Shown here in pieces: positions 16,764 to 64,000 of a DNA stretch of 64,000 nt. The notes under the pieces were generated by a model. That model was not told the DNA's origin. It searched no databases and was given only the letters and a program-made list of their open reading frames with translations. The stretch spans positions 1,240,001 through 1,304,000 of the forward strand of contig NZ_CP026514.1 of the NCBI RefSeq assembly GCF_002953935.1, written 5' to 3'. The stretch's first letter is position 1, and each line of letters begins with the position of its first letter. The position numbers and the translations under genes are program-made. The stretch is from Arthrobacter sp. PGP41. GTDB taxonomy: Bacteria > Actinomycetota > Actinomycetes > Actinomycetales > Micrococcaceae.

Positions 16764-17002
16764 CATATCCGGTTAATCACGAGTTCACAGTCCCGCAACA
16801 GGAATCGCCGCGTAATGGATGCGGAAATTAGTTGGCGGGGATTTACGTTATATCCATCAGCAGGCAAAACCGCCGGCTGATCGGGGAGGCCAGTACATGG
16901 AGCGAAACATCGCACCGGTTGTATGGGAGGCCGGACCCGGCCTCGTGGCCGAGCCGCCTCACCAATAACAATTCCGGGCTGGCGCCCGGGGCTGGAGTCG
17001 AT
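16764..17002 (+). promoter_or_regulatory. phoH upstream region
   Basis: The 239 bp hold an inverted repeat ATCAGC (16856-16861)/GCTGAT (16876-16881), an AT-richer stretch TTTACGTTATAT (16842-16853) that may include the -10, and the short ORF at 16897-16968. No gene for a PhoAT-like antitoxin of normal length was found. Confidence 0.45.
16897..16968 (+). CDS. Possible 23-residue leader peptide or small protein before phoH
   Basis: ATG 16897 is preceded by a strong ribosome-binding site, GGGGAGG (16883-16889), with 7-nt spacing. The reading frame of 23 codons ([20 protein letters not shown], then PHQ) ends with TAA 34 nt before the phoH GTG. It overlaps a frame that could extend PhoH upstream, but the ribosome-binding site points to this frame. 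No known family was recognised. It could be a leader peptide, a very small antitoxin-like partner, or a chance ORF. Confidence 0.4.
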
Positions 17003-18418
17003 GTGGCTACTTCTGAACAACTGCCCGAGGTCCTTTCCGACCAGGGAGAGAAAGCTACCTCTCGCGCCACGCGAGCCACCATACAAACCGGTGCGGCAGA
17101 AGATGCTGCGGCCGGTTTTGCTGTCTCCGGAAGGGAAGCCGACATTAACACCTTCGTCATTGACACCTCCGTCCTGCTCTCCGACCCCCGTGCGCTGCTC
17201 CGCTTTGCGGAACACGAGGTGATTGTGCCGGTGGTGGTCATCACGGAACTGGAAGCAAAACGGCACGATCCCGAGCTTGGCTACTTCGCCCGGAAGGCGC
17301 TTCGGCTCCTGGACGACCTTCGGGTCAAACACGGCGGACTCAACCAGCCAATCCCCATCGGCGACGGCGGCTCCCTGATGGTGGAGCTGAACCACATCTC
17401 CTCGGACGTACTTCCGTTGGGATTCCGCAGCGGCGACAACGACAGCCGGATCCTCGCCGTGGCGAAGAACCTCGCCAATGAGGGCCGCAACGTCACCGTG
17501 GTGTCCAAGGACCTACCGATGCGTGTCAAAGCCTCCGCCATGGGCCTCACCGCCGACGAATACCGCAACGAGCTGGTGAAGGATTCAGGCTGGACCGGAA
17601 TTGCCGAAGTTGAGGTCGGCGAACAGGAGATCTCCACGCTGTACGGCCACGAGCCCGTCTTCATCCCCGCGGCCGCCGAGATGCCGGTCAATACCGGGCT
17701 CGTGCTGCTCTCCAACCGCGGTTCCGCCCTGGGCCGGGTGGGCGCAGACAAGCAGGTCCGGCTCGTCAAAGGCGACCGTGATGTGTTCGGGCTCCACGGA
17801 CGGTCCGCGGAGCAGCGGCTGGCCATCGACATGTTGATGGATCCCGCCGTCGGCATCGTCTCCATCGGCGGCAGGGCGGGCACCGGCAAGTCCGCCCTTG
17901 CCTTGTGCGCGGGCCTGGAAGCGGTGCTGGAACGCCGCGAGCACCGCAAGGTCATCGTGTTCCGGCCCCTCTTCGCGGTGGGCGGCCAGGAACTGGGCTA
18001 CCTGCCCGGCTCCGAGTCCGAAAAAATGAACCCTTGGGCGCAGGCCGTGTTCGACACCCTCGGCGCGCTGGTCAGCCAGGAAGTAGTGGAGGAAGTCATG
18101 GACCGCGGCATGCTCGAGGTCATGCCGCTCACCCACATCCGCGGACGCTCCCTCCACGACGCCTTCGTGATCGTCGACGAGGCCCAGTCCCTCGAGAAGA
18201 ACGTCTTGCTCACCGTCATGAGCCGCATGGGCCAGAACTCAAAGGTCGTCCTGACCCACGACGTCGCCCAGCGGGACAACCTCCGCGTCGGACGCCACGA
18301 CGGCATCGCCGCCGTCGTCGAAACCCTGAAAGGACACCCGCTCTTCGGCCACATCACCCTGACCCGCTCCGAACGGTCCCCGATCGCAGCCCTGGTCACC
18401 GAACTCCTCGAAGGCTAA
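17003..18418 (+). CDS. phoH: PIN-PhoH fusion (PhoH2-type RNase/helicase)
   Basis: An N-terminal PIN nuclease domain (acidic residues in [12 protein letters not shown] with Asp54, [19 protein letters not shown]) fused to a PhoH ATPase domain (Walker A GRAGTGKS at 290-297, Walker B FVIVDEAQ). Mycobacterial PhoH2 proteins of this build are ATP-driven RNA-unwinding ribonucleases and act as toxins with PhoAT. At 471 residues this is a full-length PhoH2. GTG 17003 is chosen because a GGAG motif lies 6 nt upstream and the family N-terminus ([13 protein letters not shown]) begins there. The gene ends at repeat element A. Confidence 0.9.
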
Positions 18419-18423
18419 GCGGG

Positions 18424-18504
18424 GGTGCCCGGGTGCCCCTTCCTCTGCGTGCTGGCTCCTTCGTCGCCTTTGACGCAGGCTGCCGGAAGGCGCACCCGGG
18501 CACC
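18424..18504. repeat. Structured intergenic repeat, copy A
   Basis: Outer arms GGTGCCCGGGTGC (18424-18436) and GCACCCGGGCACC (18492-18504) are perfect inverse complements. They continue inward through CCTTCC (18438-18443)/GGAAGG (18485-18490) and CTGCGT/ACGCAG. The core 18444-18484 (TCTGCGTGCTGGCTCCTTCG and on) recurs in inverse orientation at 63949-63987. It lies between the convergent phoH and GNAT genes, 5 bp after the phoH stop, and may serve as a bidirectional terminator. Confidence 0.85.
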
Positions 18505-18515
18505 AAGTCCCGGCA

Positions 18516-19163
18516 CTAGCTGATGTTCAAGTACTTCGCTGCTGCCTCGTGGCCTTCTACCCTGAGGGTCCAGTCGGGGCGTTTGAAGGAGTCCGGGGTG
18601 AGGCGGACGTGCTGGACTGTCTCGACCTGCGTCCCCCAGGCCTTACGCGTGATGCCGTTGGGTTCGTAGCCGAGGGAGCGGGATACGCCGAGGGAGGCTT
18701 CGTTCCAGCCGGCGGCCTCGGACTCGGCTACTTCTGCGCCCAGCCAGTCAAACGCGTAAAGGGCGACGGCGGCACGCATCTCCTTGCCAAAGCCGCGGCC
18801 CTGCATTGACTGCGTGAGCCACGATCCTGTGGTGACCGTCTTGAGCGCCGCAAAATCCTTGGCCCCGACGTCCTGGCAGCCGATGAACTCACCGGCGTGC
18901 CAGATGCCCAGCAGGAGGGTCCACGACTCGGGGGTGCACTCCGCGCGGCAGCGCCAGTGCCATTGCGCCATTCTGGGGCCGAGCTCATGTTCCGGAGCTT
19001 CCGCCCAGGCGGTGCTGAACGGGTTCCTGCCGGGCTCGTGGATGCCGCTGCGGGCGGCGGCCACGGCAGCCGGAAGGTCCTGGTCGAGGACAGGGCGGAG
19101 CTCCAACCGCGGAGTTCTGAGGGTCAGGCCGAAGAGCGGCCATACGGCGTCCAGCGTAGTCAT
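18516..19163 (-). CDS. GNAT family N-acetyltransferase
   Basis: A 215-residue RimJ/RimL-type acetyltransferase: LRTPRLELRPVLDQDLPA near the N-terminus, FIGCQDVGAKDF in the central strand, and the acetyl-CoA loop SMQGRGFGKEMRAAVALYAF, followed by SLGVSRSLGYEPNG. The acceptor is unknown and could be a ribosomal protein or a small amine. ATG 19163, with TAGGCT (19170-19175, minus strand) 6 nt before it, suggests a leaderless mRNA. Confidence 0.85.
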   Translation of the reverse strand: MTTLDAVWPLFGLTLRTPRLELRPVLDQDLPAAVAAARSGIHEPGRNPFSTAWAEAPEHELGPRMAQWHWRCRAECTPESWTLLLGIWHAGEFIGCQDVGAKDFAALKTVTTGSWLTQSMQGRGFGKEMRAAVALYAFDWLGAEVAESEAAGWNEASLGVSRSLGYEPNGITRKAWGTQVETVQHVRLTPDSFKRPDWTLRVEGHEAAAKYLNIS

Positions 19164-62049: not shown

Positions 62050-63879
62050 TTGGCACACCTTCTTGGCGGCGAGAACCTGACGGTCTCCTACGCGACCCGT
62101 ACCGTCCTGGACGGCATAACCCTGGGGCTTGAGGAGGGTGACAGGATCGGCATGGTGGGGCGCAACGGCGACGGCAAATCCACCCTGATGCGGCTGCTCG
62201 CCTTGCGCTCCACGCCGGATTCGGGCCGGGTCACCAAGCGCGGCGACGTGAACGTGGGCTACCTGGACCAGAGCGACGTGCTCGACGGCGACCTGACGGT
62301 GGGCGCCGCGATCGTGGGGGACCAGGCGGATTACGAGTGGGCGCGGAATCCGCAGATCCGCGAGGTCATGGGCGGGTTGGTGTCCGACGTCGATTGGCAC
62401 GCCAATGTCCATGCACTCTCCGGCGGCCAGAAGCGGCGCGTGGCACTTGCCAAACTGCTGATCGAGGACCACGACGTCATCATGCTGGACGAGCCCACCA
62501 ACCACCTCGACGTGGAGGGTGTGGCCTGGCTGTCGCGCCACCTGAGGACGCGCTGGCGGGCCAACCAGGGTGCGTTCCTGGTGGTGACCCACGACCGGTG
62601 GTTCCTCGATGAGGTCTGCAACAAGACCTGGGAAGTCCACGACGGCATCGTCGACCCCTTTGAAGGCGGATATGCCGCCTACGTGCTGGCCCGTGCCGAG
62701 CGGGACCGGATGGCGTCCGTCGTCGAGGGCAAGCGCCAGCAGCTGGTCAAGAAGGAACTCGCCTGGCTCCGCCGCGGGGCACCCGCGCGGACGGCAAAAC
62801 CCAAGTTCAGGATCGAGGCCGCCAACGCCCTCATCGCCGATGTGCCTGAGCCGCGGGACTCCATGGCCCTCAGCAAAATGGCAACCGCCCGCCAGGGCAA
62901 GGACGTGCTGGACCTGGAGAACGTCTCCCTCAACTTCCAGGGCAGCGATGACGGGCGGAAGCTCTTCGACAACATCACCCTGCGTCTTGCCCCCGGCGAA
63001 CGCCTGGGACTGGTGGGCGTCAACGGCGCCGGCAAGACCACGCTCCTGAAGCTTCTCAATGGAGAGATCCTTCCCGACGCCGGAAAGGTCAAGCGGGGCA
63101 AGACCGTGGTCACCGCTGTCCTGACCCAGGAGGTCAAGGAACTTGACGACGTCAAGGACCTGCGAGTCATCGAGGTGATTGAGCGGGAAAAGCGGTCCTT
63201 CAACGTGGGCGGCAAGGAATTCAGTGCCGGCCAGTTGGTGGAGCAGCTGGGTTTCACCAACGAGAAGCAGTGGACCCCGGTCAAGGACCTGTCCGGTGGC
63301 GAACGCCGCCGGCTCCAGCTTCTGCGCCTGCTTGTCGGCGAACCCAACGTCCTGATGCTGGATGAGCCCACCAACGACCTCGACACCGATACCCTCGCGG
63401 CTGTTGAGGATGTCCTGGATGGCTGGCCCGGAACCCTGGTGGTGGTCAGCCACGACCGCTACCTGCTGGAAAGGGTCACCGACCACCAGATGGCACTCCT
63501 CGGCGACGGCAAGCTCCGCGGCCTGCCCGGCGGCGTGGACCAGTACCTCGAGCTGCGCGAGTCTGCGCTGGCAGGCTCCACGGTCACCGGCGGCGGGAAC
63601 CCCGTCACCAGCGCCGGCAGCAGCACCGCCGCTCCAGCTCCTTCAGGCGCCTCGGAAGCCGAGAAGCGCGACGCACGCAAAGCCAAGAACCGCATCGAGC
63701 GACAGCTGGGCAAGCTCGAACAGCAGGAAAAGAAAGTCCACGACCAGATGGTGAAGAGCACCGAACAATCGGACTTCGACGCCCTGGCTGAACAAAACAA
63801 GAAGCTCAAGGAACTCGCAGCAGAACGCGAAGCCCTCGAACTGGAATGGCTGGAGGCACTCGAGGTCCTCGGCGAGTAA
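62050..63879 (+). CDS. ABC-F family ATPase (Uup/EttA-type)
   Basis: A cytoplasmic twin-ABC protein of 609 residues without membrane domains. The first ATPase has GRNGDGKST (37-45), LSGGQKRRVALA and VIMLDEPTNHLD; the second has GVNGAGKTT, LSGGERRRLQLLRLL and LMLDEPTNDLD. A C-terminal coiled coil (about 530-609, KRDARKAKNRIERQLGKLEQ) favours Uup. ABC-F proteins act on the ribosome, in translation or antibiotic protection. TTG 62050 begins the family N-terminus (AHLLGGENLTVSY). 35 bp after ispE, so probably co-transcribed. Confidence 0.9.
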   Translation: MAHLLGGENLTVSYATRTVLDGITLGLEEGDRIGMVGRNGDGKSTLMRLLALRSTPDSGRVTKRGDVNVGYLDQSDVLDGDLTVGAAIVGDQADYEWARNPQIREVMGGLVSDVDWHANVHALSGGQKRRVALAKLLIEDHDVIMLDEPTNHLDVEGVAWLSRHLRTRWRANQGAFLVVTHDRWFLDEVCNKTWEVHDGIVDPFEGGYAAYVLARAERDRMASVVEGKRQQLVKKELAWLRRGAPARTAKPKFRIEAANALIADVPEPRDSMALSKMATARQGKDVLDLENVSLNFQGSDDGRKLFDNITLRLAPGERLGLVGVNGAGKTTLLKLLNGEILPDAGKVKRGKTVVTAVLTQEVKELDDVKDLRVIEVIEREKRSFNVGGKEFSAGQLVEQLGFTNEKQWTPVKDLSGGERRRLQLLRLLVGEPNVLMLDEPTNDLDTDTLAAVEDVLDGWPGTLVVVSHDRYLLERVTDHQMALLGDGKLRGLPGGVDQYLELRESALAGSTVTGGGNPVTSAGSSTAAPAPSGASEAEKRDARKAKNRIERQLGKLEQQEKKVHDQMVKSTEQSDFDALAEQNKKLKELAAEREALELEWLEALEVLGE

Positions 63880-63935
63880 GTCCGCCTTGGGTACCGGCCC
63901 GTGGCCCGGCCGTGGTGCCGGCGGCACGCGGGAGT

Positions 63936-64000
63936 GGGGCGGCTGTCCGGCAGCGTGCGTCAAAGCGACGAAGGAGCAGCACGCAGAGGACAGGTGCCCC
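63936..64000. repeat. Structured intergenic repeat, copy B (may continue past window)
   Basis: Arms GGGGCGGCTGTCC (63936-63948) and GGACAGGTGCCCC (63988-64000) pair at 11 of 13 positions. The core 63949-63987 (inverse complement beginning TCTGCGTGCTGCTCCTTCGT) matches the core of copy A at about 90%, in the opposite orientation. Inside, GCGTGC/GCACGC and CGTC/GACG form nested stems. It lies 56 bp after the ABC-F stop. Confidence 0.82.

Follow-up and report, generated by a model that had tools for sequence, protein, structure and literature searches.

Two intergenic stretches of DNA in the 64-kb window (the whole stretch that was analysed, 64,000 nucleotides) carry nearly the same core between arms of different sequence. 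This raises the question of what kind of element the core and the arms form together, and of whether their pairing is kept by selection on a folded structure. A sequence-only reading had noted that the 41-nt core at 18444-18484 (copy A) reappears inverted at 63949-63987 (copy B). Comparison of the core with the reverse complement of the second site gave what had been claimed, i.e., two one-base gaps and one substitution. The arms differ yet pair in both copies, also as claimed: CCTTCC/GGAAGG plus 13 bp in copy A, and CTGTCC/GGACAG plus other arms in copy B. The features of the two loci are listed below, where the GA strand is the purine-rich strand of the element, P1 to P4 are its stems from the outside to the tip and the ORFs were named from their translations.

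16832..18418, plus strand: PhoH-like ATPase ORF, which stops 5 bases before copy A
18424..18504, GA strand on the minus strand: copy A, whole element (94 bits, E 4.9e-21)
18424..18436: one arm (13 nt) of the copy A outer stem P1, partner 18492-18504
18437/18491: 1x1 mismatch of copy A, G·G on the GA strand
18438..18443: one arm of the copy A stem P2, partner 18485-18490
18444..18446, minus strand: AGA side of the copy A P2/P3 internal loop, GGCA side at 18481-18484
18447..18452: copy A stem P3, partner 18475-18480, with one C·C mismatch on the GA strand
18454..18468, minus strand: apical hairpin P4 of copy A, where the GA strand has a GAA triloop and tandem G·A pairs
18469..18474, minus strand: GTCAAA side of the copy A P3/P4 internal loop, partner A at 18453
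18485..18490: second arm of the copy A stem P2, from the window reading and folding
18492..18504: second arm of the copy A outer stem P1, from the window reading and folding
18516..19163, minus strand: acetyltransferase-like ORF, convergent, downstream of copy A
63001..63879, plus strand: ABC-F-like ATPase ORF (3' part, the start being further left), upstream of copy B
63932..64000, GA strand on the plus strand: in-window part of copy B, which extends beyond the window end
G000:C1:1303925-1304005, plus strand: model match of copy B (E 6.3e-21)
63943..63948: copy B stem P2, partner 63988-63993; its G·G mismatch is at 63942/63994
63949..63987, plus strand: copy B core, with GGCA loop, P3, GTCAAA loop, P4 with GAA triloop, A, second side of P3 and AGA loop

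Copy A lies directly after a stop codon, 5 bases behind that of the PhoH-like gene (18418). The same had been stated for copy B; this element starts some 50 bases after the stop codon of the ABC-F gene (63879), so that this part of the statement did not hold. On its other side copy B is flanked by a convergent gene, TetR-like by its translation. Ahead of copy B, after the ABC-F stop codon, there is a small separate hairpin at 63915-63927.

Folding z-scores were -4.2 and -4.7 for the two strands of copy A and -2.6 and -2.9 for copy B, the outer arm of which is clipped by the window end. A search of the window with a 22-nt core pattern, allowing up to 3 mismatches, yielded a single match, copy A, and no match in 100 shuffles; copy B was not caught because of its gaps.

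Members of the family and their fold

A covariance model built from 32 copies found by BLAST identified 7 copies in the genome to which the window belongs, every one with E below 1e-8 and with both strands represented. Besides copies A and B, these are located behind a DUF885-like gene (copy C), between ABC-F-like and YbaK-like genes, inside nadB, and, as a head-to-head pair, between clpC- and S9-peptidase-like genes. A second covariance model recovered 6 of the 7, missing one member of the clpC pair, and gave one additional weightless match (E 0.1). The clpC pair (G000:C1:296849-297031, L072) has a spacing of 21 bp and was seen again in further genomes (L074, L078, L079 and L134).

By BLAST, copy A has matches in 115 of the 150 genus genomes, so that the core is not confined to two copies in one genome. 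At the level of the taxonomic family, matches were obtained in 29 of 295 genomes and in 3 of 32 genera; 23 of the 29 were from the same genus as the window, and among the genomes itemised in that search, which leave aside 246 without a match, one genome of this genus (G091) had none. Matching genomes carry from 1 to 12 copies. In the GTDB contig collection, 98 stretches contain the exact core of the short form, an element of about 80 bp; the 80 of these with titles listed come from Arthrobacter, Pseudarthrobacter or Paenarthrobacter.

Beyond the family, the second model matched 7 of 394 genomes of the class, 4 of them in one family of another order. In that family 6 of 22 genomes matched, two of the six weakly (E 5e-4 and 0.01). 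To judge from their sequences, these matches are likely to be distant members of the element family: by eye, 5 of the 9 copies (L337, L338, L339, L349 and L352) keep both loops, with unrelated arms, P3 and P4, and the remaining 4 have altered loops. One of the distant copies is located between rpmE- and prfA-like genes and one at gltB/gltD-like genes. Three elements of this distant family (L353, L350 and L351) have long arms and other P2/P3 loops, yet share the GCGAGGAACGAGCGAG tip seen in Arthrobacter.

Read along the GA strand, the element consists of a variable P1, often a G·G mismatch (at arm position 7 in 31 of 129 copies), P2, a GGCA/AGA loop, a 6-bp P3, a GTCAAA/A loop and P4. This strand would fold into one stacked hairpin, with P1, P2, the outer loop, P3, the P3/P4 loop and the apical P4 in succession; the outer loop occurs in the versions GGCA/AGA, GGAA/GGA, RTGTA/GGN and GAAA/GT, and the P3/P4 loop GTCAAA/A or GTCYAA/GA. 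In a MAFFT alignment of the 32 BLAST-found copies, pairing was observed in 93.5% of the cells, so that arms which do not pair are not a feature of the family, and two-sided changes were found in 17 of 25 pairs, a number reached in 0 of 500 shuffles. Pairing fell below 48% when the partners were slid by 1-3 columns as a control. Together with the 7 copies of this genome and the 115 matching genomes of the genus, the 17 covarying pairs bear out the original proposal of a repeat family with a constant core inside covarying arms.

The two sides of each internal loop change together. Loops and arms could be parsed in 129 of the 150 copies described below, 21 being unparsable. In the P3/P4 loop, a single A stands opposite GTC or GTA with A-type letters behind it (89 copies), and GA stands opposite GTCTAA or GTCCAA (38), leaving 2 exceptions. 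In the P2/P3 loop, GGCA is found with AGA or CGA in 62 copies (with other partners in 5) and GGAA with GGA in 29 (with other partners in 2); RTGTA with GGN and GAAA with GT also occur. P4 is longer in some copies. Of the 102 short copies, 98 have a GNA triloop at the tip. The closing pair of the tip exchanges between G-C (51), C-G (50) and G-T (1), and the flanks are tandem G·A pairs in 98 copies and GG/GA in 4. The whole window gave 0 Rfam matches at the gathering threshold, and the region of copy A gave 7 sub-threshold matches only, to microRNA families and one lncRNA family.

Positions relative to genes and copies in reading frames

The location of the element was analysed for 150 copies, i.e., the 154 matches minus those with identical flanks, against gene calls from a Markov model, for which long ORFs of the loci and of the window had served as the training set. 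Convergent genes surround 61 copies and codirectional genes another 61 (39 CTCC-sense and 22 GA-sense); 22 overlap an ORF, 2 are between divergent genes and 4 could not be assigned. Chance may explain the weakest of these matches (L132 at 1658 and L128 at 1638, E about 0.005). Single-linkage clustering on flanking sequence yielded 31 locus groups, which may merge neighbouring sites and are not perfectly independent units; the two largest codirectional groups do merge such sites (e.g., both sides of one gene), so that 31 is a lower bound. By majority, 16 groups are convergent, 9 codirectional, 4 in-gene, 1 divergent and 1 unassigned, the divergent group (L070, L071) consisting of weak matches. 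The codirectional groups include 4 that are CTCC-sense, 3 that are GA-sense and 2 with both.

Most convergent copies (55 of 61) are located within 30 bases of a gene 3' end, with a median of 14. For the codirectional copies the corresponding number, relative to the 3' end of the upstream gene, is 27 of 61, with a median of 52, and 14 copies are more than 150 bases away. Copies less than 500 bp apart were always arranged head to head, with the 5' ends of their GA strands facing each other (14 of 14 pairs, in 5 locus groups, one pair, at L132, depending on a weak match).

The predominance of convergent sites, with a single divergent group, and the proximity to gene 3' ends are in agreement with the suggestion that the elements are bidirectional transcription terminators. 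The long P1/P2 stem, a strong hairpin between convergent genes as in bidirectional intrinsic terminators, would stop the polymerase for both genes, and the core would be a protein-binding or stabilising loop. By eye, a plain hairpin or a different palindromic repeat takes this position at many phoH 3' ends of other species, which also favours this explanation. As the basic function of the element, however, termination was not borne out: full-length copies with paired arms are located in frame inside nadB, copA-like, DmpA-like and DUF4194 genes, and further copies separate a gcvT- from a gcvH-like gene, and a glyA-like gene from the one that follows it on the same strand (names from translations). 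The fixed asymmetric loops are unnecessary for termination and, by eye, the copies read show no regular T run: there is none behind either arm of copies A and B, as far as the window shows, and copy C has TTTT behind one arm. We consider termination an unlikely explanation of the element.

The copies are not inside genes as often as at 3' ends, since in-gene groups account for 4 of the 31. Two of the 22 in-gene calls stand apart, L107 (probably due to a wrong start codon) and L013 (at the end of an IS481-like ORF), and the 4 in-gene groups comprise the remaining 20 copies. These copies keep open frames in the genes of NadB, a copper-ATPase (CopA)-like protein, a DmpA-like peptidase and a DUF4194 protein, NadB being named by database sources and DUF4194 by Pfam. 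Identification of the DUF4194 protein as ScpA, made from sequence reading, was ruled out by the Pfam assignment. Inside genes the arms are still paired, with 186 of 224 positions Watson-Crick in the 16 copies parsed. Fuzzy matching of the element-encoded peptide against the best 120 relatives of each protein, which are nearest relatives and not a random sample, detected it in 108 NadB and 64 DUF4194 proteins. Such inserts in NadB, copper-ATPase-like and DUF4194 proteins could be mistaken for protein features; the element is an example of coding palindromes in high-GC actinobacteria.

At the DUF4194 gene the element is present at 6 of the 30 nearest loci. A filled and an empty site (L354 and L357) differ, by eye, by 69 nt in frame, both arms included, and the difference is bounded by a 4-bp direct repeat; judged from the sequences, it may represent a gain or, as well, a deletion. 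The C-terminal tail of DUF4194 proteins (L354-L383) is a hot spot where palindromic inserts of several kinds occur in frame. One arm pair is common to L381 and L373, with and without a central part, and the DUF4194 protein P0128 has a tandem duplication within the element-encoded peptide.

G·T and A·C mismatches on the GA strand

If the arms were kept only as duplex palindromes, or by template switching, G·T and A·C mismatches should be equally frequent on the GA strand. In a first count, 152 G·T and 34 A·C were found, in copies obtained partly with the model. Because the model favours G·U on the GA strand, the count was repeated on copies identified by the exact core alone (sequences from 80 loci of the 98 stretches, with 5 of 81 exact-core copies unparsable). 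In this core-only set, with 64 G·T and 23 A·C mismatches in total, G·T exceeded A·C in 9 of 13 locus groups and the reverse was found in 0, with 4 ties (sign test p 0.004); one of the 13 groups contributes 36 of the 76 copies. At arm positions 8-18 the numbers were 53 and 20, and with one copy per arm cluster 19 and 9 (p 0.087). Among 28 locus groups, G·T exceeded A·C in 20 and the reverse was seen in 4, with 4 ties; the largest group is one of the four reversed ones (10 to 11). Predicted energies favoured the GA strand in 26 of the 28 groups, with RNA and DNA parameters alike, but they are not independent evidence because the fixed core takes part in the fold.

The possibility that template switching during replication keeps the palindromes paired, without any selection on the arms, was considered in this connection. 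The process can create and repair hairpin stems (PMC8794818, in the parts considered here), and the arms do change fast within a locus group while remaining paired: the seven largest groups, which are all intergenic, have compensated changes at 7 to 14 of the 14 arm positions. By reasoning, however, template switching is strand-symmetric, so that the G·T excess (9 groups against 0, and 20 against 4) is unpredicted, and it leaves the fixed loops and their coupling unexplained. As a full account of the arms it is rather improbable. For the first part of the claim that the element reflects selection on a fold and not just shared ancestry, the strand-specific wobble is an argument; its second part has to be qualified, since the copies are largely inherited in place and template switching can preserve pairing without selection. 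The GA strand, as RNA or as single-stranded DNA, appears to be the selected form.

Structured loops, covariation, wobble of the G·U type and location at 3' ends would all be compatible with a folded, protein-binding RNA in 3' untranslated regions that has a role in protecting or processing the mRNA. Such an RNA also agrees with the G·T to A·C ratio on the GA strand of 6 to 1 in the purely GA-sense codirectional groups (n=3, small numbers) and of 6 to 7 in the purely CTCC-sense groups (n=4). The orientation of the element relative to its host gene is mixed, however, as seen in the 9 codirectional groups above, and when the codirectional copies are counted in the sense of the host mRNA, 42 G·U are found against 43 A·C. 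In nadB, where the GA strand is antisense, this strand nevertheless has 9 G·T and 0 A·C, although codons may cause the skew, and there is no Rfam family match. An RNA function of this kind seems doubtful. Our leading inference is that the GA strand may act as single-stranded DNA rather than as mRNA, although the small ratios from the purely GA-sense and purely CTCC-sense groups speak against it. The GNA triloop is typical of stable DNA minihairpins.

Inheritance, known repeat kinds and a putative enzyme

Orthologous sites that hold the element in some species lack it in others. For the DUF885-like gene, the 30 nearest loci include 8 with the short form (by automatic flag), 3 with a long or truncated form and 6 that were read as empty (by eye). 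At the phoH 3' end, where all assignments were made by eye, 7 of 30 loci carry the element, two of them in rearranged form. The copy at the phoH 3' end of L163 (G009) has about 60 extra bases in the apical loop, and that of L162 (G007) has lost half of P3/P4.

The copies are largely inherited in place, the 150 falling into 31 or somewhat more locus groups, and their staying at these loci throughout the genus would be in keeping with a host function as well. Between locus groups the arms are for the most part unrelated, with a median identity of 44% over 36 bases, the less variable P2 included. A few pairs reach 89% over the 36 bases, for example the CopA-like and the DUF4194 copy, indicating that arms can travel with the core. 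No movement event was seen in the comparison of filled and empty sites. Insertion of the core into existing plain hairpins was not supported by the empty DUF885-like sites: six empty sites corresponding to copy C (L209, L210, L215, L218, L219 and L228) have no leftover palindrome of those arms. An unrelated plain hairpin occupies the corresponding position in L226. In L212 one arm only is present, and in L203, at the copy B locus, the right half; from their sequences both look like deletions.

The likeness to REP-like repeats had been suggested from the window and was supported, the element being palindromic, located behind genes, arranged in head-to-head pairs and also present within genes. 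These properties, which compare with those given for REPs in PMC3733652 (in the parts considered here), would suit a REP moved by a RAYT, a Y1 transposase of the IS200/IS605 type. A RAYT-like enzyme in its usual Y1_Tnp form, the other suggestion made from the window, was not supported by the search: the Y1_Tnp profile (PF01797) found nothing in the genome carrying the window and matched in only 1 of the 61 genus genomes searched, although 5 of 14 genomes of a control set were positive, so that the search works. With this profile, no mobilising gene was found for the element in the 61 genomes. By eye, no conserved tetranucleotide is present at the outer end in the 82 nt aligned. Mobilisation by a RAYT is thus highly improbable. 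The single genome with Y1_Tnp, G032 (L084, L085), contains two such matches and has no BLAST match to copy A.

Among known repeats, the closest comparison is with the CGTC-tagged REPs, for which PMC3733652 (Di Nocera et al. 2013) was considered in part. These have an 8-9 bp stem starting with A/T pairs, a 4-5 nt loop and a CCA-like tail, with CGTC changing to TGTC or CCTC; they form mostly head-to-head dimers with spacers mostly of 20-100 bp, behind and inside genes, lack a known transposase and include the Rickettsia RPE-4 and RPE-6. Our element shares with them the location behind genes, between convergent or codirectional genes, the copies in genes and the predominance of head-to-head dimers, and no dedicated transposase was found for it either. 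It has CGTC at the P3/P4 junction, and CCTC in some distant copies. In contrast to these REPs, its CGTC is inside a longer hairpin, with the first C paired in P3; tandem G·A pairs interrupt P4, and the loop is a GNA of 3 nt (98 of the 102 short copies). Stem and loop depart from the definition of the CGTC REPs, and for this reason the element was not filed as one of them. It differs further in its long variable outer arms, its few copies per genome and its actinobacterial hosts; the main text of PMC3733652 makes no mention of Actinobacteria or Arthrobacter. Low copy numbers also distinguish the element from classical REPs.

Like the RPEs of Rickettsia described in PMC2229807 (in the parts considered here), the element is a stem-loop repeat found between genes and in frame inside conserved protein genes, where the frames stay open. 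The RPEs are 105-146 bp long, whereas the short form has about 80 bp and two fixed internal loops and occurs in actinobacteria of the Arthrobacter type; this comparison was made by description. With the GTAG REPs that have a RAYT (PMC3733652, likewise in part) the element has in common its size class, the dimers and the 3' location. Its type II loop, RTGTA, is followed by a P3 starting with G and hence contains GTAG, but Y1_Tnp was not found in its own genome or in 60 of the 61 genus genomes, and no tag was seen at the outer end.

We conclude, with a probability of about 0.6, that these dispersed palindromes belong with the REP/RPE elements, as a new actinobacterial kind that a putative trans-acting enzyme would mobilise. 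The folded GA strand, probably as single-stranded DNA rather than as mRNA, would be read by the putative enzyme in trans while the element is copied to a new place. Copies would then persist for a long time behind genes, where a hairpin may be harmless or useful, or in protein linkers and tails that may tolerate an in-frame insert. More tentatively, it is possible that the element represents a new class of actinobacterial mobile elements, in which a single-stranded DNA fold of the GA strand, with its d(GNA) minihairpin, tandem G·A pairs and two fixed internal loops, would be recognised by a non-Y1 enzyme, with insertion in frame into proteins and with self-complementary arms evolving freely around constant loops.

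How REPs and RPEs without a transposase move is left open in PMC3733652 and PMC2229807, in the parts of both considered here. The element offers a handle on their movement and on whether they act as RNA or as DNA: its arms keep a strand-specific record of the folding strand, its loops are exactly defined, it occurs in many named strains of Arthrobacter, Pseudarthrobacter and Paenarthrobacter, and filled and empty sites can be compared within one protein. In the literature on such repeats, with few subscription journals covered, no description of this element was found. A table of RepRanger (PMC12306157, considered in part) gives counts for Arthrobacter livingstonensis.

A second, longer palindromic repeat of about 150 nt, often with GTCGCTTAGACAC, occurs in many other species at the same phoH-like and ABC-F-like 3' ends (L147, L150, L177, L178, L180 and others). 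Its motif GTCTAAGCGACG is similar to the region of the P3/P4 loop in the present element.
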